13,325 bases of DNA. Source: Candidatus Aenigmatarchaeota archaeon (GTDB taxonomy: Archaea > Aenigmatarchaeota > Aenigmatarchaeia > GW2011-AR5). A model generated the notes under the pieces. That model saw only the letters and a list, made by a program, of their open reading frames with translations. It made no database searches and was not told the origin of the DNA. The stretch spans positions 1-13,325 of the forward strand of contig JACQIH010000020.1 of assembly GCA_016198625.1 (NCBI GenBank), written 5' to 3'. The translations under genes and the position numbers were made by a program. This document shows, piece by piece, positions 5,018 to 13,130 of the stretch. Each line of letters starts with the position of its first letter. Position 1 is the first letter of the stretch.

Positions 5018-5581
5018 ATGAGGATGTTATTTCTGATGCTGCTTGCCGTCGCATTGATTTCTGCAACCGCTCTCAGCCAGGACACCGTGTCCTCGGGATA
5101 CTACATTTTCGGGCGCTCGGCTGCTTTCTCAATCGTCAGCAACATAAACAACAAGAGCAACGACGCGATACAGCAGGGCAACGACTACATCTCGGCCGCG
5201 GACGGGCACCTCATCCTGGCACTTGTTTCCTCGTCAGGATTCGGCACGAAGAACAGCACGAATTACAACGGCCTTTCGTACCTGCTGGAAATGAGGCAGC
5301 CCCTTGACTCGAGGCTCTTCATAACTTTCACGCGGGCCACCGAGGAAGGCATCAGGAAAAAGATAGATTCAATCAGGCTCTACGGCATCGTGGATACACG
5401 CTTCGGCTCTTACAATGTCACGAGGCCCGATACGATTCCCGTGGTAATGCGGCTCGAATACACGGACATAGACATAGTGGGGCGCTCTCTCATCGGCCCC
5501 GGGGCGCGCGAGATTGTCGTGGAGAACCTCGGGAAGAACTCCAACAACGTCACGAAGGTCCAGGTGGCGGTGATAAAATGA
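5018..5581 (+). CDS. Sec-secreted protein, paralogue of the 3467 product, function unknown
   Basis: The 187-residue protein starts at ATG 5018; GTG 5009 is in frame but less likely. Residues 1-19 (MRMLFLMLLAVALISATALS) form a Sec signal peptide without a prepilin site. The mature part opens QDTVSSGYYIFGRSAAFSIV and has NKS, NST, NYT-like and NVT sequons and no cysteine. Its C-terminal MRLEYTDIDIVGRSLIGPGA and VQVAVIK parallel the end of the 3467 product. The alternation secreted / minor pilin / secreted suggests a duplicated gene pair or a shared complex. Its stop overlaps an ATG (ATGA, 5578-5581) that opens a 21-codon frame leading into the next pilin gene. Confidence 0.78.
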   Translation: MRMLFLMLLAVALISATALSQDTVSSGYYIFGRSAAFSIVSNINNKSNDAIQQGNDYISAADGHLILALVSSSGFGTKNSTNYNGLSYLLEMRQPLDSRLFITFTRATEEGIRKKIDSIRLYGIVDTRFGSYNVTRPDTIPVVMRLEYTDIDIVGRSLIGPGAREIVVENLGKNSNNVTKVQVAVIK

Positions 5582-5643
5582 GAAACTTTGCTGCTCCAAG
5601 CAGATTTTTGGAAAAAAGTTGCATCAAAAAGAGGTCGTGGTAA
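5578..5643 (+). CDS. Possible 21-aa linker ORF between two pilin-operon genes
   Basis: ATG at 5578 overlaps the previous stop (ATGA), and the TAA at 5641-5643 overlaps the ATG of the next gene (TAATG), so the frame exactly fills the gap. The peptide is MRNFAAPSRFLEKSCIKKRS plus W. A 41-codon ORF at 12578 also starts right at a pilin stop codon and opens MNFAAP. The DNA here is also a degenerate member of the palindrome family (AACTTTGCTGCTCC), so the conservation may be in the nucleic acid and not the peptide. GAGGT at 5631-5635 serves as Shine-Dalgarno for the next gene. Confidence 0.25.
   Translation: MRNFAAPSRFLEKSCIKKRSW
5580..5597 (+). repeat. Post-stop half-palindrome, copy 1
   Basis: GAGAAACTTTGCTGCTCC overlaps the stop codon (5579-5581). 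It matches the second palindrome of the unit at 6185-6238 (GAGAAACTTTGTTTCTCC) at 16 of 18 bases. Similar sequences follow stops at 8964, 10984 and 12578. Confidence 0.5.
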
Positions 5644-6149
5644 TGATAAATAATATTTTCTTTTTGGGCAACTTGCACTTTTTCTTTCCTGAAAAGAAAA
5701 AGGGCAGAAAGGGCCAGTCGCACATACTGATGCACGCGTTCGCGGTGGCGTTCAGCCTGATCATGATATGGATCATCGCCTCTAGCATGAATTCCATGAT
5801 AGACGACCACAGGGAATTTGTCGGGAAGAAGGAAATACTGCAGGTCTGCGACATAATGAAGACGGCAGCCGAGAAAATCATGGTGCCGCAGGAATACGTC
5901 TCAAGAAGCAATACCACGCTCGGGAGCATCAGCATCGCGATGCCCGAGAAGATAGGCGGGACGAATTACAGGACTCGCTTCGTCAACGACACGCTTATCA
6001 TAGAGACAACAGGCACACCTACGATCAACGACACGTGCATAATGGGCTTCAACGCCACCTTCCGCGGCGGCACGAACGGCGGCAGGACGTCCGTCGTTTA
6101 CACGCGGTACAGCGACGGGACGGACGAGATAAGGGTGACTAATGTCTGA
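5643..6149 (+). CDS. Minor-pilin-like protein (168 aa) with a hairpin leader
   Basis: The start at ATG 5643 is chosen from the Shine-Dalgarno GAGGT (5631-5635) and TAATG coupling. The leader is MINNIFFLGNLHFFFPEKKK then GRKG|QSHILMHAFAVAFSLIMIWI, with cleavage after G24. An acidic/helical stretch and a small globular part follow, with sequons NTT, NDT and NAT and one cysteine pair (VCDIMK, DTCIMG). Its leader DNA (5649-5713) is almost identical to that of the 8218 gene, but the mature proteins differ in length and sequence, so the leader has moved or been copied separately from the body. Likely a minor pilin. Confidence 0.78.
   Translation: MINNIFFLGNLHFFFPEKKKGRKGQSHILMHAFAVAFSLIMIWIIASSMNSMIDDHREFVGKKEILQVCDIMKTAAEKIMVPQEYVSRSNTTLGSISIAMPEKIGGTNYRTRFVNDTLIIETTGTPTINDTCIMGFNATFRGGTNGGRTSVVYTRYSDGTDEIRVTNV
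5649..5713 (+). repeat. Leader cassette, unfilled copy (pair of 8233-8351)
   Basis: Two blocks match the 8218 leader exactly: 26 nt at 5649-5674 (AATAATATTTTC...GGCAACTT) and 38 nt at 5676-5713. Only G5675 separates them here; 55 nt carrying two palindromes occupy that place in the other copy. Within the right block CTTTTTCTTT (5678-5687) and AAAGAAAAAG (5693-5702) form a hairpin with loop CCTGA directly before the Lys/Gly codons. Confidence 0.75.
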
Positions 6150-6170
6150 TTGAGACGTGGAGTAATAATT

Positions 6171-7766
6171 ATGAATGAGGGAAATCTGCAAAGAGCAGAG
6201 CTCTTTGAAACGTTGGAGAAACTTTGTTTCTCCAGACGTGAGGTTAGAAGGAGAGAAACCGAAACAGTTTGGAAGTTGCAAAGCAACTTCATCCGGCTTT
6301 TCTCCTCCTCCAAGGGCGCGGCACAGCTGGATTTCGTCATAGCCGTCGGGCTGTTCCTCGTACTCTTCGCTTTCATAATCCTTTCGTTCAGCAGCTTTGT
6401 GGCGCCGATAAAGAACCTGGCGGACATAGCGCAGCTGAGGAGCGAGGCGGAAACACTGCGCGGCGTGGCCGACAGCGAGTACGTGCCGCGGGACTGGCCG
6501 CCGCCTTTTCTCGGCGCCAATACAGTCTTTCTGCTGCGGCTTGACAATTCCACAGCGGACAGCAGCAGTTCCGGAAACAGCGGGACTTCCGCCGGCGGCT
6601 TGAACTGCGCTCCCAACGTGCAGGGCATTATCCTGAGCGCCTGCGCATTTGACGGCACAAACGACGCCGTTAATGTCAGCGACAACGCTGCCACGAGCGT
6701 CACGGGAAATTTCACGATAGAAGCCTGGCTGAGGATTGAGCCCGCCTCGGCGAAAAACATGTCCGTTGTTTCGAAATACGAGCCAGGCGGAAACCAGCGT
6801 TCCTACGCCCTGTTTGTGAGGAACGACAGCAAGGTCGATTTCAGGATATCAACGGACGGCTCCGCGGTAATGAACGTTGTCAGCAATTCAACCCTCTCGA
6901 CCAACGTCTGGTACCATGTTGCCGGAGTGTTCGTGACGAACACTTCGCTGAATATCTATGTCAATGGCGTGCTCGAAAACAGGAATGTGAGCAGCGTGCC
7001 TTCGTCCGTTCTAGATTCCTCGGTTGCCACAACAATAGGCGGGCGCGGAGGAGCAGCGGAATCCTTCTTCAACGGGACGATAGACGAGGTACGGCTCACG
7101 AACCGCTCGCTGAACACAACGGAAATCCAGGAACACCACGAATTCGGCAAAAAATTGCGCCGCCTCGGGCTGAGTACGCGCGCGTACAAGATGACCGTGC
7201 TGATAAACAACACCGCGGCGTTCCTGCGGAACACGAGCGACCCCGTCGCGAGGATTACAAACGAGCTTGTCACCTTCAACATATCCTCATTCATTGAGAA
7301 CTACGACCTGAATTCCGTCGCCGTATACGACGACTACAACCGCTCCGTGACGTACCAGAGGAGCGGCCAGAATTTCTCTTTCGTCGTCGAGGTGAATGCG
7401 AGCCAGGAAAGATTTTATACAGTGTATTTCGACGACGACAGCCGGCGTTTTCTGGAACCCGGAAACACGGTAAGCGGCGTTGATAACCTTACAGAAACCG
7501 TATTCACGCCGGAAAGAATGACGCTGGTGCAGTACGACAAGCTCGCGCAGCTGAATCTCACAAACATGACGCACGTGAAGGAAGGCACGCGGATGGAAGG
7601 CAGCTTCAGGATAAAGATAACTGACCTGGATACGAACAGCTCGTCTATTGACGTAGGGGAGACGCTTCCGAAGACCGGGAACGTCGTTTCATTGCAGCGC
7701 TTTGTCGTGTTCCAGAACAGCACCGCCGGCATAAGGCGCGGCAAGATGATCGTCCAGGTGTGGTAG
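6171..7766 (+). CDS. Prepilin-like LamG-domain protein, likely filament-tip adhesin
   Basis: The 531-residue product is numbered from ATG 6171, supported by GGAG at 6159-6162; TTG 6150 and TTG 6276 are alternatives. The 49-residue leader ends LFSSSKG|AAQLDFVIAVGLFLV, followed by an assembly helix to about residue 76. Residues 117-323 form a LamG/concanavalin jelly-roll: FDGTNDAVNV, FTIEAWLRIE, WYHVAGVF, NIYVNGVL, FFNGTIDEVRLTNRSL. The remaining 200 residues are beta-rich with many N-x-[ST] sites. LamG domains bind glycans or proteins, so a single very large prepilin among small pilins fits a tip adhesin or a substrate-binding minor pilin. The leader contains three perfect triloop palindromes. 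It lies 3 nt before the next gene. Confidence 0.87.
   Translation: MNEGNLQRAELFETLEKLCFSRREVRRRETETVWKLQSNFIRLFSSSKGAAQLDFVIAVGLFLVLFAFIILSFSSFVAPIKNLADIAQLRSEAETLRGVADSEYVPRDWPPPFLGANTVFLLRLDNSTADSSSSGNSGTSAGGLNCAPNVQGIILSACAFDGTNDAVNVSDNAATSVTGNFTIEAWLRIEPASAKNMSVVSKYEPGGNQRSYALFVRNDSKVDFRISTDGSAVMNVVSNSTLSTNVWYHVAGVFVTNTSLNIYVNGVLENRNVSSVPSSVLDSSVATTIGGRGGAAESFFNGTIDEVRLTNRSLNTTEIQEHHEFGKKLRRLGLSTRAYKMTVLINNTAAFLRNTSDPVARITNELVTFNISSFIENYDLNSVAVYDDYNRSVTYQRSGQNFSFVVEVNASQERFYTVYFDDDSRRFLEPGNTVSGVDNLTETVFTPERMTLVQYDKLAQLNLTNMTHVKEGTRMEGSFRIKITDLDTNSSSIDVGETLPKTGNVVSLQRFVVFQNSTAGIRRGKMIVQVW
6185..6238 (+). repeat. 54-nt in-frame palindrome-pair unit, copy U1
   Basis: Layout is 4 + 19 + 6 + 21 + 4 nt. 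The first palindrome (6189-6207) has arm CAAAGAGC and loop AGA. The second (6214-6234) has arm TGGAGAAAC and loop TTT. The flanks GGGAAA and TGAGGTTAGA are adjacent, without the unit, at 11552-11567. It begins at a third codon position and encodes LQRAELFETLEKLCFSRR in the removed leader. Confidence 0.75.
6239..6315 (+). repeat. Leader cassette interrupted by a third palindrome
   Basis: 6239-6261 (TGAGGTTAGA...GAAACCG) is a 23-nt exact match to 11558-11580. It is followed by a perfect palindrome with arm GAAGTTGC and loop AAA (6272-6290), then the closing arm TTTTCTCCTCC and AAGGG. This copy is translated in a different frame from the 11521 gene. Confidence 0.6.
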
Positions 7767-7768
7767 AC

Positions 7769-8221
7769 ATGGATAATATTTTAAAGAGGGAAACGAGATT
7801 CAAAAGAGAGAAACCGTCAGGTTTCTGCTCTTTGAAGGGGTACATCTACACGCTCGAAGCCCTGGTCGTGATTACTTTCGTGATTCTTACCATAACCTTC
7901 ATGTTCAATGTCACGCCGCAGCAGCCCGAGCTCGAGATAAGCAACGTCAAGCAGCAGGGCTTCGAGGCGCTGGAATACATGGACAAGAGGGGGGAGCTGC
8001 GCAGGATCGTCTGGGAAAACGACGAAGCCGAGCTGGAGAGCCAGGTCTCCCAGCTGCTTTCGAAAAACCTGAAAATAGAAAGCAACATATGCAGCTTCAA
8101 CTGCTCGGCCGGCTCCGTGGCCGGGAACGAAACGGTCGTGGGCGTCAGGTATTACGTTGCCAATTACCGAAACATATACCTGGGGAAGAAAGTGATTCTA
8201 TGGATGTGGAGAAAAATATGA
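7769..8221 (+). CDS. Minor-pilin-like protein (150 aa)
   Basis: ATG 7769 lies 2 nt after the LamG gene's stop; a GTG at 7760 is in frame but overlaps that gene. The leader MDNILKRETRFKREKPSGFC then SLKG|YIYTLEALVVITFVILTITF is cleaved after G24 and has Glu at mature position 6, the same T-L-E-x-[LI] arrangement as the 4227 product. A coil-rich segment follows (QQGFEALEYMDKRGELRRIV), then a small domain with two close cysteines (NICSFNCSAG) and a basic hydrophobic C-terminus (GKKVILWMWRKI). It overlaps the next gene by ATGA. It is a likely minor pilin, perhaps paired with the LamG protein. Confidence 0.8.
   Translation: MDNILKRETRFKREKPSGFCSLKGYIYTLEALVVITFVILTITFMFNVTPQQPELEISNVKQQGFEALEYMDKRGELRRIVWENDEAELESQVSQLLSKNLKIESNICSFNCSAGSVAGNETVVGVRYYVANYRNIYLGKKVILWMWRKI
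7794..7837 (+). repeat. Leader cassette hairpin (7769 gene)
   Basis: ACGAGATTCAAAAGAG and GAGAAACC resemble the ATGAGGTTAGAAGG/GAGAAACC cassette elsewhere. The inner arms AGAAACC (7809-7815) and GGTTTCT (7820-7826) flank loop GTCA. The outer arms CAAA.GAG and CTCTTTG extend the stem to 7801-7834, directly before AAGGGG (Lys-Gly). Confidence 0.55.
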
Positions 8222-8964
8222 GATATTACCCGAATAATATTTTCTTTTTGGGCAACTTTCTCGAAAAGCAAAGCTTTTCGGAATCTCGGAGAAGCTTCGC
8301 TTCTCCCAAGATACACTTTTTCTTTCCTGAAAAGAAAAAGGGCAGAAAGGGGCAGATGTTCGTCATAGCCGGGCTCATCATACTCATAGGACTCTTCCTC
8401 CTGAGGGGAGTTTTCGGGATATACTCGACTCTCGAGGAAAAAAGGTTCCAGGAAACGATGATAATGGACAAGGAGCTGAGAAACATCCAGCACGAGTACG
8501 AGAATATCGTGGCCGTGAGCCGCCTGCAGGGCAACGCCAACGCCTCGGCTATCTCGAACCTGATGGACTTCTCGACGTTCCTGCGCGGCGAAGAGGATGC
8601 GGAGGTATTTTACGCGCTCATTTCCGTCAACAACACGGCGTTCAGCGTGACCGCTGGGAATTTCCTCAACGACAACATAAATCTCACGGTCAACGCGACC
8701 ACCTCGACCCCCGCGTTCGCAGTCATCGGGGCGATCAACGACAAAAGGAACGGCACCGCGTCATTTTCGGCGGACATATCGAGCGGCATCGTGAACGTGA
8801 CGCTCACCTACGAAAGGCGCAACCAGAACATAACCGAGACGATACCGATAAGGATAGCGCCGCCCGCGCGGGAAAGGTCCGTGCTCCAGCTGTTCCTCGA
8901 CGCGAAGCTGAAAAGCAAGGACGATTTCGCGAGGATAAAGAGCACTTTCAACACGACATGGTGA
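8218..8964 (+). CDS. Minor-pilin-like protein (248 aa) with a palindrome-filled leader
   Basis: ATG 8218 overlaps the previous stop (ATGA), which fixes the start well. The leader begins MRYYPNNIFFLGN and ends HFFFPEKKKGRKG|QMFVIAGLIILIGLFLLRG, with cleavage after G45. Between these halves lies an 18-residue insertion relative to the otherwise identical 5643 leader. The mature protein has a helical stalk (STLEEKRFQETMIMDKELRN) and a beta-rich domain with sequons NAS, NNT, NLT, NGT and NVT, and no cysteine. The C-terminus is basic (LDAKLKSKDDFARIKSTF). Likely minor pilin; no finer family is recognised. Confidence 0.8.
   Translation: MRYYPNNIFFLGNFLEKQSFSESRRSFASPKIHFFFPEKKKGRKGQMFVIAGLIILIGLFLLRGVFGIYSTLEEKRFQETMIMDKELRNIQHEYENIVAVSRLQGNANASAISNLMDFSTFLRGEEDAEVFYALISVNNTAFSVTAGNFLNDNINLTVNATTSTPAFAVIGAINDKRNGTASFSADISSGIVNVTLTYERRNQNITETIPIRIAPPARERSVLQLFLDAKLKSKDDFARIKSTFNTTW
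8233..8351 (+). repeat. Leader cassette, filled copy (pair of 5649-5713)
   Basis: 8233-8258 and 8314-8351 are exact matches to 5649-5674 and 5676-5713. The right block holds the hairpin CTTTTTCTTT (8316-8325) / AAAGAAAAAG (8331-8340). The U2 unit lies between the blocks. Confidence 0.75.
8259..8313 (+). repeat. In-frame palindrome-pair unit, copy U2 (net 54 nt)
   Basis: The first palindrome (8262-8280) has arm CGAAAAGC and loop AAA. The second (8288-8306) has arm GGAGAAGC and loop TTC, after a 7-nt spacer. These 55 nt replace the single G at 5675 of the matching leader, a net gain of 54 nt (18 codons). It encodes LEKQSFSESRRSFASPKI in the leader. Confidence 0.82.
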
Positions 8965-8968
8965 TTCC

Positions 8969-9010
8969 AGACTTTGCTACTCCATAACAGCTTGACGCAC
9001 AAGTGCGTCA
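8969..9010 (+). repeat. Post-stop half-palindrome plus palindrome between pilin genes
   Basis: AGACTTTGCTACTCCA (8969-8984) resembles the post-stop element at 5580. It is followed by a perfect palindrome TGACGCA-CAAG-TGCGTCA (8993-9010). Further on, ATCAAAAGAG..TAGTGG (9021-9038) matches ATCAAAA(A)GAGGT..GTGG before the 5643 gene and after the 12578 stop. Confidence 0.5.
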
Positions 9011-9048
9011 TTCGTTAATGATCAAAAGAGACTAGTGGATTTGATTTG

Positions 9049-9753
9049 ATGGCAAGCCCGATAGTGACGTTTGTGCTCGTGACCGCCATAGCCATAGCGG
9101 CTATGTTCATGGTCCTGAACATAGGGCTCCCCGCGATAGAAGGCGCGAAGACCGGCGAGACGTTCAGGCAGACCGAGTCCGTGATGATACAGATAGACAA
9201 CGCCGTGCGCGAGGTTGCGAAGGAAGGCGTGGGTTCCCGGCGCGTCATAAAATTCACGTCGCAGGGCGATATCGAGGTCGTGCCCCAGGAAGACTTCATA
9301 CAGTCAAGAACCGAGTCGAAAGCATCCGCCATAGACTTTCTTTCGAGGAAAACGGGCAAGAACATCATGTACATAGGCGGCGAGGACGTCGTATGCGACG
9401 CCTCGGCGAACTTCACCGTTGAAAACACCTTTTTCAAGGCGGTTCTGCTGAAAGCCGCCAACGCCACGCCACTGCCCAGCCTCAGCACGAACAACATCAT
9501 AATATCCCTGACCGAGAAGGACAGCGGGACTCAGGTGAACGTCACGAACTCCACGATTATCATAGACGACAACCCAGCGCTCGCCGGCGGGACGGGCTTC
9601 ACGGAGCTTCTCCGTGCCGGCAGAGGGCTTTCTTCCTGCACGGTCCACGCCTTCGTGAATGCGAGCAGCTCGATATCCTACGACGTTTATTACACGCTTT
9701 ACGCCGGCGCGGATTTCCTGAAAGTGGAGCTTAGAAATGTCAGGACGCCTTGA
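9049..9753 (+). CDS. Minor-pilin-like protein, paralogue of the 4227 product, without a recognisable class III site
   Basis: The 234-residue product starts at ATG 9049, with TTG at 9046 as an in-frame alternative. It opens MASPIVTFVLVTAIAIAAMF, the assembly helix of a pilin, but no Lys/Arg-Gly precedes it and an in-frame TGA at 9019-9021 limits any upstream extension. The segment IQIDNAVREVAKEGVGSRRV and the C-terminus ISYDVYYTLYAGADFLKVEL parallel the 4227 protein. Two cysteines (VVCDAS, LSSCTV) may pair. The DxDxDG loop of the paralogue is absent. Either the leader was lost to the palindromic debris just upstream, or Met1-Ala2 is handled differently. Confidence 0.75.
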   Translation: MASPIVTFVLVTAIAIAAMFMVLNIGLPAIEGAKTGETFRQTESVMIQIDNAVREVAKEGVGSRRVIKFTSQGDIEVVPQEDFIQSRTESKASAIDFLSRKTGKNIMYIGGEDVVCDASANFTVENTFFKAVLLKAANATPLPSLSTNNIIISLTEKDSGTQVNVTNSTIIIDDNPALAGGTGFTELLRAGRGLSSCTVHAFVNASSSISYDVYYTLYAGADFLKVELRNVRTP

Positions 9754-10382
9754 AACCGGAATACGGGGAAATCCGCTTCTTCAAAATATTTAAATGGGGC
9801 GAATCAAGTAATAGCAGTGATTTCGTGAGTACTTCTGATTCTAGTAATAAGGGAATGAGGTTAGATTTGCAGAAACCGAAGGTTTCTGAAATGCCAAAGA
9901 ATCTTCGATTCTTTGAGCAAGGAGAGAACCGCAGGTTCTTCTCCTCTAAAGGAGTATCGCCCCTTATTGCCGCCGTCCTGCTGATCGCCTTTACCATGGC
10001 CATCGCGGGCATAATGGCCACGTGGGCGACGACCTTCTCGCAGCAGAAACTGCTGACTTCGGAAGAGAAATCGAACTGCATAGGCGCCCTGGACCTGTCG
10101 TCGGCTGCTTTCTCAGACAAGCTTGTCAGCGTCCAGGTAAAGAACCTTAAAACGAACATGAACCTGTCATCCCTGACGGCCAACATCATTTACAGCGACC
10201 CGGCGAAAAGCAAGGCGCATTCGAACATAGCCATGAAAGGCTACAACGTGACGGATCCCATGCCGCCTGGATTCACCGACTGGTTCATCTACAACAGCAG
10301 CGAAGCCACGAAACCGGTGCGCATAGAAGCGTACGCCGGCAACTGCGGCCCTGATTTCACGGCGAAGATTTCATTGGCGTGA
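9750..10382 (+). CDS. Archaeal type IV pilin, family A, with a 68-residue leader
   Basis: The longest frame starts at TTG 9750, overlapping the previous stop (TTGA); GTG 9825 and ATG 9855 are in-frame alternatives. AAATATTTAAATGGGG (9784-9799) resembles either a leader block of other genes here or a TATA box, so the start is uncertain. The leader ends RRFFSSKG|VSPLIAAVLLIAFTMAIAG. The mature chain is 142 residues, the same as that of the 2985 pilin, and is closely similar to it (FSQQK, SEEK, ANIIY, KAHSN, DPMPPGF, GNCGPDF). The leader includes a serine-rich stretch and three hairpins. The downstream pilin has its own promoter. Confidence 0.85.
   Translation: MKPEYGEIRFFKIFKWGESSNSSDFVSTSDSSNKGMRLDLQKPKVSEMPKNLRFFEQGENRRFFSSKGVSPLIAAVLLIAFTMAIAGIMATWATTFSQQKLLTSEEKSNCIGALDLSSAAFSDKLVSVQVKNLKTNMNLSSLTANIIYSDPAKSKAHSNIAMKGYNVTDPMPPGFTDWFIYNSSEATKPVRIEAYAGNCGPDFTAKISLA
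9866..9919 (+). repeat. 54-nt in-frame palindrome-pair unit, copy U3
   Basis: Layout is 4 + 19 + 6 + 21 + 4 nt, identical to U1. The first palindrome (9870-9888) has arm CAGAAACC and loop GAA; the second (9895-9915) has arm CAAAGAATC and loop TTC. It splits ATGAGGTTAGA from AGGAGAG, which are contiguous at 11557-11574. It starts at a third codon position and encodes LQKPKVSEMPKNLRFFEQ. Confidence 0.78.
9920..9945 (+). repeat. Leader hairpin with GCA triloop (9750 gene)
   Basis: GGAGAGAACC and GGTTCTTCTCC pair around loop GCA with one bulge, and the next bases TCTAAAGGA carry the Lys-Gly codons. Compared with 11569-11594 one A is missing from the 5' arm and the matching T from the 3' arm, a compensatory loss that keeps the stem paired. 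Confidence 0.6.
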
Positions 10383-11520: not shown

Positions 11521-12042
11521 ATGAGCATGTCTGAAATAATATTTTCTAAAGGGGAAATGAGGTTAGAAGGAGAGAAACCGCAGGTTTCTTCTCCTCTAAA
11601 GGGGGTTTCGCCGCTCATCGCGACCGTCATGGTTATAGCTATAACCCTGATAATCGCCACGCTGATTTCCTCGTGGATATCGGCGCTCTCGCAGGAGCAG
11701 GGGAAGACCGTCTCGAACAAGACCGAGGCGATAACAAGCTGCGCGGGCTCGGGCATAGTGATAGAGGACGTCTATCTCGAGACGGCCACAAACATATCGC
11801 GCGTCACGGTGCGGAATTCGGGAAGAACGACCGAGACGATCATCTCGGCGCAGATACTGAGCAAGACCGGCGTGAACGGGACCCTCAATACGTCATTGCC
11901 GCTCAGCATAACCAGCGGCGACATAAAGTCGCTTGTATTCAACACCACCGGAGCCATAACGAGCTGCGCGAACTTCTCCCAGGTGCGCGTTTCCACGGAA
12001 TGCACGTCCGATTTCTACAGGCAGTCGCCGAGGAACTGCTAG
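11521..12042 (+). CDS. Archaeal type IV pilin, family B, with a long hairpin leader
   Basis: The start is placed at ATG 11521, 8 nt after the previous stop; ATG 11527 and ATG 11557 are alternatives. A start upstream of AATAATATTTTCT is favoured because 5643, 7769 and 8218 also begin before that block. The leader ends RLEGEKPQVSSPLKG|VSPLIATVMVIAIT, 28 residues. The mature chain is 145 residues, the same as the 11066 pilin, with matching motifs (IEDVYLE, SRVTVRNSG, NFSQVRVSTEC) and a terminal NC. The leader DNA is the simplest full copy of the cassette and serves as the unfilled reference for U1 and U3. There is no convincing TATA box, so it is probably cotranscribed with 11066. Confidence 0.87.
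   Translation: MSMSEIIFSKGEMRLEGEKPQVSSPLKGVSPLIATVMVIAITLIIATLISSWISALSQEQGKTVSNKTEAITSCAGSGIVIEDVYLETATNISRVTVRNSGRTTETIISAQILSKTGVNGTLNTSLPLSITSGDIKSLVFNTTGAITSCANFSQVRVSTECTSDFYRQSPRNC
11557..11604 (+). repeat. Basic leader cassette with GCA-loop hairpin (reference copy)
   Basis: ATGAGGTTAGA is followed by GGAGAGAAACC (11569-11579), loop GCA (11580-11582), GGTTTCTTCTCC (11583-11594) and TCTAAAGGGG. The stem is 11 bp with one bulge. Copies or relatives occur at 4239, 6239, 7794 and 9855/9920. Confidence 0.65.
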
Positions 12043-12110: not shown

Positions 12111-12578
12111 GTGGCTCAAATGAAAGGCGTCAGCACCATCATCGCGACAGTCCTGCTTCTTGCTATAACGGTCCTCATTTCGCTCGTGGTATCGACATCG
12201 TTCACGCAGATAACCAAGGAGCAGACATCCACGGTCTCCACCAGGACGACGCAGGCCGTGAATTGCACGTCGTCCGACATCAACGTGGAGGCGGTCTACC
12301 TCGACACGGGCCCGTCAAACCAGAGCCGCGTGACCGTGCGGAACTCGGGGCAGATTAACGAGAACATCGTCGCGGCGAAGATGTACAACAAGACGGGCAT
12401 CGAGGCGGCCTCGATTACAACCTATCCCGCCGCCATCGCGAAGGGCTCCCTGACAACGCTGCTGTTCAACATATCAGGCTCCGGCGGTCTTAACGTCACC
12501 TGCAGTTCCTTCTCGCAGGTGATAGTCTCCACGGAATGCGTGACGGAAGTGTTCGACTCGACGCCGAAGAACTGCTAA
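12111..12578 (+). CDS. Archaeal type IV pilin, family B
   Basis: The protein has 155 residues from GTG 12111, or 152 from ATG 12120, which would give the familiar MKG start. The leader is MAQMKG|VSTIIATVLLLAITVLISL and the mature length is 149. It shares VEAVYLD, QSRVTVRNSGQ, SSFSQVIVSTEC and the terminal KNC with the other family B pilins but is the most divergent of the three. Its cysteines (AVNCTSS, NVTCSS, STECVTE and the C-terminus) keep the same four-cysteine pattern. Its stop TAA overlaps an ATG (TAATG) that opens a 41-codon frame. Confidence 0.88.
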   Translation: MAQMKGVSTIIATVLLLAITVLISLVVSTSFTQITKEQTSTVSTRTTQAVNCTSSDINVEAVYLDTGPSNQSRVTVRNSGQINENIVAAKMYNKTGIEAASITTYPAAIAKGSLTTLLFNISGSGGLNVTCSSFSQVIVSTECVTEVFDSTPKNC

Positions 12579-12703
12579 TGAACTTTGCTGCTCCAAAGTT
12601 CAATCAAAAGAGGTTTGTGGTTAAAAGAAAGCCTCTATGGAAAGAAAATATTAAGAACAAGAAAAGTTTAATCAAAAGCGAAAGAAAGAAATTCGGAGAA
12701 TAG
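12578..12703 (+). CDS. Possible 41-aa lysine-rich ORF between pilin genes
   Basis: ATG 12578 overlaps the pilin stop by TAATG, and the TAG at 12701-12703 is 2 nt from the next pilin's ATG. The peptide starts MNFAAPKFNQKRFVVKRKPL and continues as a Lys/Arg-rich tail (KENIKNKKSLIKSERKKFGE). The opening repeats that of the 21-codon frame at 5578. Base composition is markedly A-rich, so this could equally be a leader RNA with no coding role. Confidence 0.3.
   Translation: MNFAAPKFNQKRFVVKRKPLWKENIKNKKSLIKSERKKFGE
12580..12601 (+). repeat. Post-stop palindrome, copy 4
   Basis: GAACTTTG and CAAAGTTC form perfect 8-bp arms around loop CTGCTC, starting 2 nt after the pilin stop. ATCAAAAGAGGT..GTGG follows at 12603-12620, as before the 5643 gene. 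Confidence 0.55.
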
Positions 12704-13109: not shown

Positions 13110-13130
13110 CAGAATTGCTTCGCAATTCTG
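13110..13130 (+). repeat. Solitary triloop palindrome after the last pilin gene
   Basis: Perfect 9-bp arms CAGAATTGC / GCAATTCTG flank loop TTC, starting 6 nt after the stop codon. It belongs structurally to the same palindrome family. A T-run (13158-13163) follows 28 nt later, so a transcription-end role is also possible. Confidence 0.65.

Follow-up and report, generated by a model that had tools for sequence, protein, structure and literature searches.

A dispersed, probably mobile family of palindromic double hairpins surfaces in the pilin leaders of an archaeal contig

How did three palindromic segments, alike in shape and length but different in sequence, come to lie within the leaders of pilin-like genes on one archaeal contig, and do they belong to those leaders? 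The contig, JACQIH010000020.1 (13,325 nt, analysed whole and hereafter called the window), is contig C72 of the assembly GCA_016198625.1 of a Candidatus Aenigmatarchaeota archaeon (508 kb in 88 contigs, 56% complete), and each of the segments, U1, U2 and U3 (Table 1), is a pair of hairpins (HP1 and HP2) with three-base loops. Our analysis is based on metagenome-assembled genomes (MAGs) and uses E-values that are rough, having come from a short calibration. It indicates that U1–U3 are probably copies of one mobile element, short, palindromic and non-autonomous, made of two tandem hairpins in mirror arrangement.

Recomputation reproduced exactly the coordinates, perfect triloop palindromes and 6–7-nt spacers of the original prediction, which had also set each unit against a unit-free leader in the same window and put the difference at 54 nt. 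That comparison holds, with junctions in the unit-free leaders at 11557^11558 for U1 (GGAAA^TGAGG), at 5674^5675 for U2 (55 nt against one G) and at 11567^11568 for U3 (TTAGA^AGGAG); the leader hairpin adjoining U3 also has one base pair fewer than its counterpart in the comparison leader. The predicted reading frame, lack of stop codons, L-[QE]-[KR] start and Glu at position 8 of the encoded peptides hold as well, the peptides being judged by eye and the start codons putative, and our home-made hexamer gene caller stretched a gene across U3 only, not across U1 or U2. U1 and U3 share an identical minimum-energy structure, in which an 8-bp hairpin with a 3-nt loop is followed by three unpaired bases and a 9-bp hairpin with a 3-nt loop that three further pairs close around a one-base bulge. 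U2 folds into two 8-bp hairpins, with outer pairs unlike those of U1 and U3. Folding z-scores are -4.1, -4.2 and -5.2 for U1, U2 and U3, and for each of them an equally good fold appeared in 0/200 dinucleotide shuffles.

These units are far from alone. A covariance model built from U1, U2 and U3 (R1), which scored them at 79, 74.2 and 77.1 bits in a search of their own assembly, returned 40 rows there at E <= 1, both strands counted, and 23 places at E <= 1e-3, bearing out the expectation of further copies in the genome. Of the 20 own-genome places that we inspected in context, four lie at contig ends, share one unit and seem to be copies of a single longer repeat. A longer repeat that carries additional hairpins (ACGGCTTTTAAGCCGT beside a unit) stands at or near the ends of G000 contigs C1, C30, C32, C55 and C68 (loci L023 and L034–L037), and is perhaps the cause of some assembly breaks. 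Beyond this assembly, R1 matched 35 of 59 genomes (own and relatives; at most 100 matches per genome, both strands), and a second model built from 82 matches (R2) matched 40 of 156 genomes of the phylum, the range that this search covered; these counts are bounded by the candidates scored, 98 per genome for R1 and 37 per genome for R2. Copies are plentiful in G001, G004, G008, G010, G013, G015 and G020, and sparse in G006, G009, G024 and G027. R2 matches occurred in 19/19 genomes of the family and 11/12 others listed from the order (30/31 listed genomes of the order in total), against 10/125 elsewhere in the phylum; four of these last ten have a single weak match, and the others include G064 with 29, G054 with 18, G050 with 12 and G105 with 6. 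The family is concentrated in one order and is not strictly limited to it.

An excess of hairpins can also be seen with no model at all. Counting perfect hairpins with stems of at least 8 bp and loops of 3–5 nt, we found 11 in the window against 1.2 in shuffles (10 shuffles), and 155 against 18.3 and 193 against 17.3 in 400 kb of genome G001 and 320 kb of genome G008, respectively (3 shuffles each); the commonest distance between neighbouring hairpin centres was 26 nt. A distant relative, L012, has a hairpin excess (8 versus 0.9) without the 26-nt spacing, and L010 has no excess (2 versus 1.3 in shuffles). As to viral carriers, exact matching of two degenerate unit patterns, which cover part of the family, gave 0 matches in IMG/VR.

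Across 64 distinct high-scoring units, the anatomy is that of a mirror (one second-strand row was left out here, and likewise from the distance-class and Watson-Crick/G-T counts given below). Of these, 30 measure 54 nt and 22 measure 53 nt, the rest being 51, 52, 56 or 57 nt long. The assumption that copies are always 54 nt and in frame therefore fails in both parts, most copies being intergenic, and the element itself stands. The two hairpin centres lie 26 nt apart in 45/64 units, stem 1 has 8 bp in 41/64, and C precedes the loop in 59/64 (HP1) and 54/64 (HP2). HP1 triloops read purine-N-A in 52/61 cases and HP2 triloops read T-N-pyrimidine, the mirror image, in 57/61; units start with TCT (41/64) and end with AGA (36/64). 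The typical layout is TCT-N-[8 bp, 3-nt loop]-AGA followed by TCT-[8–9 bp, 3-nt loop]-N-AGA, and because loops and ends are mirrored the unit looks much alike from either strand; the covariance model often matches both strands of one place. A mean of 4.31 of the six frames is open per unit, compared with 2.14 in mononucleotide shuffles, which helps explain how units can be carried in genes.

Several comparisons bear on movement. In G008, six 53-nt copies fall into two sets of three, identical within each set and surrounded by unrelated flanks; the sets differ only by inversion of a loop (TTC versus GAA on identical stems); all six copies are preceded by T, and five of the six are followed by T. 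More generally, A or T flanks 75/79 units on the left and 69/79 on the right. Units also occur within units: G013 carries a unit at the centre of another, and this four-hairpin composite stands at five sites, with small differences in the outer unit, while a different unit type is nested in the HP1 3' arm of a unit in G001 (L097), G008 (L123) and the own genome (L027). Joining the flanks without the inner unit restores a canonical outer fold at L097 (unit at L097:6376) and a near-canonical one at L027. Identical units are also found within longer repeats that have their own conserved hairpin flanks in G020 (L079–L083) and G026 (L084–L086), possibly larger mobile elements of a similar kind.

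Sites that differ in occupancy come from G001, a genome of the same genus in which gene-wide segments of the pilin region are ~70–80% identical to the window. U1 is common to both at the orthologous site (L009:6392-6445), where HP2 and outer-stem pairs have changed on both sides. The sites of U2 and U3 are unoccupied in G001, in line with the prediction of empty sites: the ortholog of the U2 gene has a different leader that lacks the unit, and at the U3 gene the whole leader is absent and the gene begins only just upstream of the class III site. Elsewhere in G001, at L009:12593-12643 and upstream of another pilin gene, lies a 51-nt stretch that matches U2 at 96% identity. The U3 gene itself has a relative at 77% identity in JACPJW010000001.1 (Candidatus Aenigmatarchaeota MAG, locus L009) and more distant ones that include archaeon GW2011_AR5; in L013, a unit encodes a stretch 84% identical to residues 39–57 of the U3 host open reading frame (ORF). 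Sequence comparison shows the units to be a dispersed, multi-copy element with a net gain of ~54 nt that inserts into its own copies, forming nested composites that also recur.

What is kept within this family is pairing rather than sequence. The arms of U1–U3 had been described as different while their base pairing is kept, and this extends to the family at large: in an alignment of 82 matches (A3; 65 distinct rows), each of the 20 stem pairs shows two-sided changes in some rows, and 97.5% of cells are paired, a percentage that leans towards the structure of the aligning model from which the A3 structure was derived. Two-sided changes account for 252 cells, and one-sided standard changes for 8. 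The pairing and covariation measures were reached by 0/500 shuffles, and sliding the partner column lowers them strongly. With one outer stem-2 pair (columns 40/63, taken up below) excluded, 1193/1209 cells are Watson-Crick, 8 are G-T, 3 are A-C and 5 are other. Selection acting on RNA is expected to tolerate G-U, and functional RNAs keep many more G-U pairs. Changes on both sides with almost no G-T or A-C intermediates point to a palindrome that is kept as DNA, presumably on both strands alike. When units are compared by total distance (pairs of units that are not independent), one-sided versus two-sided changes number 14 versus 2 at distance 0–3, 22 versus 30 at 4–7, 64 versus 233 at 8–11 and 522 versus 3959 at 20–23, so one-sided changes prevail only between near-identical units. 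New mutations thus appear to be one-sided and to be afterwards matched or lost.

Template switching at extruded hairpins would explain both the matching of arms and the inversion of loops. We envisage, as the most likely cause, that hairpins would be extruded at the replication fork, where template switching would copy one arm onto the other, preserving the palindrome and also yielding loops in both orientations. Insertion would occur in trans, on a single-stranded or cruciform form, by a nuclease, recombinase or repair route, and a length near 54 nt with few stop codons would make the insertion tolerable in gene ends, linkers and surface loops. A bolder version, which we put forward tentatively and as less likely to be right than wrong, is that of a mobile element inherited by its shape: a DNA double hairpin of fixed geometry (stems of ~8 bp, loops of 3 nt, centres 26 nt apart and single-base bulges in mirror positions) whose letters drift as template switching rewrites the arms, and which a DNA-structure-reading enzyme of this archaeal order might move without Y1, reverse transcriptase, TnpB or DDE_Tnp_1.

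Several observations weigh against a mobile element as the explanation. No mobiliser was found, and five enzyme families are each missing from several copy-rich genomes. The Y1 transposase (PF01797) is present in 15/59 genomes and has no match in G001, G004, G010, G015, G026 and G030, genomes with 36–89 R1 matches each (both strands) and assemblies 75–90% complete. Among 31 genomes, reverse transcriptase (PF00078) was matched in 10 (9 over cut-off) and not in G001, G004, G008, G010, G013 and G015; the TnpB domain (PF07282) in 12 (7 over cut-off) and not in G001, G004, G008 and G013; tyrosine integrase (PF00589) in 18 and not in G008, G013, G020, G026 and G030; and DDE_Tnp_1 (PF01609) in 12 and not in G001, G008, G010, G013 and G015. 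Assembly gaps or diverged proteins are possible reasons for the missing matches. The pair at columns 40/63 is unpaired in 24/65 rows, equal bases flank only 37/79 units, meaning that a 1-bp target duplication is not general, and, once joined, the flanks of the nested G008 case (L123), like those of L074 and L075, regain the canonical fold only in part. Strong cruciform selection would match arms equally well, but it covers arm matching only and not loop inversion. Mobility itself is read from genome comparison. On the subject of Y1 genes, G008 carries fragments (~31–33 profile positions) at the ends of contigs C2, C3 and C4, which suggests an insertion sequence that broke the assembly.

Where the units land decides whether pilin leaders are special. 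We examined the best 150 of 174 matches in 400 kb of G001, 320 kb of G008, 60 kb of G004 and 20 kb of G010, a set that includes weak and both-strand matches (alignment A2, used for this count alone) and relies on our home-made gene caller. These merged into 94 places, 85 of them between genes, 7 within six called genes and 2 at stretch edges, in DNA that is 79–87% covered by called genes. An earlier hand-picked set of 87 units, with some places left out, likewise had 7 coding (6 in G008, 1 in G001). In the own genome, one of 16 copies with inspected neighbours (U3) is inside a called gene, and several of the 16 occupy short gaps beside ribosomal-protein-like genes (S9-L13, L29-S3 and S17, named by eye). 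The idea that the units are confined to prepilin leaders is accordingly not supported; what survives of that first reading is a structure-conserved archaeal double hairpin, an insertion of ~54 nt that can be in frame.

Since the gene caller sees open frames only, we judge in-frame insertion in genes by comparing proteins. An epimerase of G001 (Pfam PF01370) has a sharp-edged insert of 22 residues (66 nt of inserted DNA) that is absent from 9/9 aligned homologs, one of them 79% identical. The predicted fold of this epimerase has a mean predicted local distance difference test score (pLDDT) of 92.6, with 56–67 in the insert blocks and 82–99 elsewhere. Unit-like peptides also occur in two FtsY homologs (93% identical in alignment), where they occupy two different positions in a poorly conserved N-terminal region; the second was recognised by eye from protein alone. 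Units do seem concentrated near the pilins of G001: a 20-kb stretch chosen for its pilins holds 7 places, compared with a mean of 0.84 in 19 other stretches, a figure that is descriptive given this choice. Pilin leaders, being long and dispensable, may be a permissive landing place rather than reflect a function of the unit.

Could the units instead act in the genes that they adjoin? If they were structured RNAs, leader or operon-gap hairpins that control mRNA stability, processing or translation and whose pairing is selected on RNA, then the strong folds of U1–U3, the covariation of every stem pair and the positions of some copies near start codons in ribosomal-protein-like operons and pilin leaders would all make sense. 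We nevertheless regard this as improbable, given the scarcity of G-T and A-C cells (a comparison with functional RNAs that draws on general knowledge), the matches of the model to both strands at many places, the near-identical copies in unrelated flanks and the nested copies. No Rfam family was found at the units either: at gathering thresholds, the window and loci L009, L013, L117 and L118 (93,886 bases) gave one match, an archaeal signal recognition particle RNA in L009, outside the units. Selection for an added peptide, making the unit a coding insert specific to prepilin leaders, draws on the three in-frame copies in one pilin cluster, the U1 frame that is kept open in G001 and the richness of the (non-random) G001 pilin stretch, but it must contend with the intergenic majority, the unoccupied U2 and U3 sites in G001 and an openness that is spread across frames, and we find it scarcely credible.

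Two further alternatives invoke DNA processes. In a REPIN/RAYT-type system, paired palindromes are moved by a Y1 tyrosine transposase, and the mirrored pair of short palindromes, the single-base bulges near the foot, the mostly intergenic placement, the tens of matches per genome and the Y1 genes or fragments in 15/59 genomes, G008 and G013 among them, would fit such a system. It is unlikely to apply here, as PF01797 is unmatched in the six copy-rich genomes named above and the arms diverge, whereas the REP sequence is conserved within a genome in the available portions of its description (PMC3116915). Template switching might also create hairpins de novo everywhere, without any moving element; the 8–11-fold hairpin excess over shuffles in G001 and G008, the excess in L012 that lacks the 26-nt spacing, the loop inversion and the arm matching all suit a process of this sort. 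Local birth does not account for 53-nt copies that are identical, or for nested composites that recur, at unrelated sites, for the spacing peak at 26 nt or for precise insertions in leaders and in the epimerase, and is a very unlikely explanation. Our preferred reading remains the mobile double hairpin.

In the window, the unit-bearing genes and their leaders contain further hairpins (Table 1). The ORF that hosts U1 fuses a pilin-like N-terminus to a Laminin_G_3 (concanavalin-like lectin) domain. The longer ORF 8089-8964 around U2 had no Pfam match at E 0.1, and the Pilin_N match of the U3 host scores 21.9 bits, short of the 25.2 bits that Pfam sets as cut-off. The leader text AATGAGG..GGAGAGAAACC-GCA-GGTTTCTTCTCC is a repeated hairpin module (window 6240-6261, 7795-7816, 9857-9878 and 11559-11602) that is found in several pilin leaders and also near other genes, where it encloses a unit (L021, L022, L027). 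A second recurrent motif, recognised by eye, consists of a hairpin of the type GAAACTTT...AAAGTTT followed by NATCAAAAcGG or NATCAAAAGAGG; it lies directly after stop codons in the window (5580-5625, 8964-9035, 12577-12625), recurs in L018, L020, L032 and L097, and has units inserted within it at several places. For its strict tail pattern AGTT(T)NATCAAAA, we counted 28 occurrences in 400 kb of G001 and 4 in 320 kb of G008; the window has one. A perfect single hairpin, CAGAATTGC-TTC-GCAATTCTG, stands at 13110-13130, a few bases past the stop of the last pilin-like ORF.

Table 1. Positions of the units, their host ORFs and neighbouring leader hairpins in the window.
Feature	Position	Strand	Description
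U1	6185-6238	+	54 nt; flanks GGGAAA^TGAGG; outer CGT/ACG
U1 HP1	6189-6207	+	8 bp, loop AGA
U1 HP2	6214-6234	+	9 bp, loop TTT
U2	8259-8313	+	net 54 nt versus leader at 5649-5717
U2 HP1	8262-8280	+	8 bp, loop AAA
U2 HP2	8288-8306	+	8 bp, loop TTC
U3	9866-9919	+	54 nt; flanks TTAGA^AGGAG; outer TGC/GCA
U3 HP1	9870-9888	+	8 bp, loop GAA
U3 HP2	9895-9915	+	9 bp, loop TTC
U1 host ORF	6150-7766	+	N-terminal match DUF7287 and Laminin_G_3 domain; pilin-like KG-hydrophobic start (by eye)
U2 host ORF	8218-8964	+	prepilin-like (by eye)
U3 host ORF	9750-10382	+	prepilin; Pilin_N at residues 67-99
Leader hairpin module GGAGAGAACC-GCA-GGTTCTTCTCC	9921-9944	+	directly 3' of U3; recurs in several leaders (repeat families D4, D5, D18)
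Leader hairpin module of 9921-9944 type	11569-11594	+	unit-free pilin leader; empty comparison for U1 and U3
Single perfect hairpin GAAGTTGC-AAA-GCAACTTC	6272-6290	+	leader module 3' of U1; absent in G001

How does such an element compare with known ones? Prokaryotic miniature inverted-repeat transposable elements are likewise short, non-autonomous and multi-copy. Their terminal inverted repeats measure about 10 bp or more, whereas complementarity at the ends of our units extends to only 3 nt (TCT/AGA); a target duplication does not appear to be general here, and no parent transposon was identified in the search of five mover families, in which transposon ends were not compared with the unit. 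REPINs, described in the available text as two inverted palindromes forming one mobile, extragenic unit with compensatory changes noted in the hairpin (PMC3116915), resemble our units in being multi-copy pairs of inverted palindromes. They differ in that several copy-rich genomes here have no Y1 transposase match, that the arms diverge between copies within a genome (small identical sets occur), and that the hairpins are directly adjacent and can be inserted in frame. REPINs are the nearest prokaryotic mobile pair, but of their defining features the transposase goes unmatched in several copy-rich genomes here and the palindrome sequence is not conserved.

In their effect, the units resemble the Rickettsia palindromic elements (RPEs), which the consulted passages describe as bacterial palindromic repeats of about 150 bp integrated in frame in unrelated genes (PMC10969869). 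The archaeal units, too, lie in frame inside unrelated genes (epimerase, FtsY, pilin leaders), but they are ~54 nt long, consist of two separate hairpins, are defined by structure with diverging arms and are mostly intergenic, differences that set them apart by description. In their anatomy, they resemble the double-hairpin and nested repeats of fungal, sponge and algal organelles. Fungal double-hairpin elements (DHE) are, in the sections available, tandem hairpins with complementary substitutions that are inserted in genes and retained in transcripts (PMC2800124); organellar palindromic repeats are reported, in extracts of a second paper, to average 50 nt, with 3–5-nt loops often in two orientations and nested repeats, those of Volvox mitochondrial DNA being confined to intergenic and intronic DNA except for one rRNA module (PMC2670323). 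Fungal DHE, sponge RHE and Volvox repeats share with our units the dispersed tandem hairpin with nested insertions, but belong to eukaryotic organelles, and the portions of these sources at hand do not mention a fixed ~54-nt mirror architecture. Nematomorpha mitochondria have perfect palindromes in translated genes, for which the available text proposes template switching as the cause of joint arm evolution (PMC6649704); according to the same text, both arms there encode conserved protein, with lengths to 284 bp, and are not inserted elements.

Among the top-ranked matches in the open-licence literature, we found no description of such elements in these archaea. The accessible parts of a survey of hairpins in 118,019 genomes (PMC13155455) make no mention of aenigm-, dpann- or nanoarch-, those of a REP survey of bacteria and archaea (PMC12306157) none of aenigm- or dpann-, and those of a Ca. 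Aenigmarchaeota genome paper (PMC8407114) contain 'palindrom' once, within a CRISPR reference. The units appear to be an undescribed archaeal counterpart, in a small-genome lineage, of the palindromes that Rickettsia carries in frame and of organellar double hairpins. They also matter for calling genes in these archaea, where what is taken for a leader, linker or loop can in fact be an inserted element. The many copies of the same shape with different letters form a natural record in which to ask whether the perfection of a palindrome is due to selection or to a copying process, and the family points to a new way of moving very short DNA.

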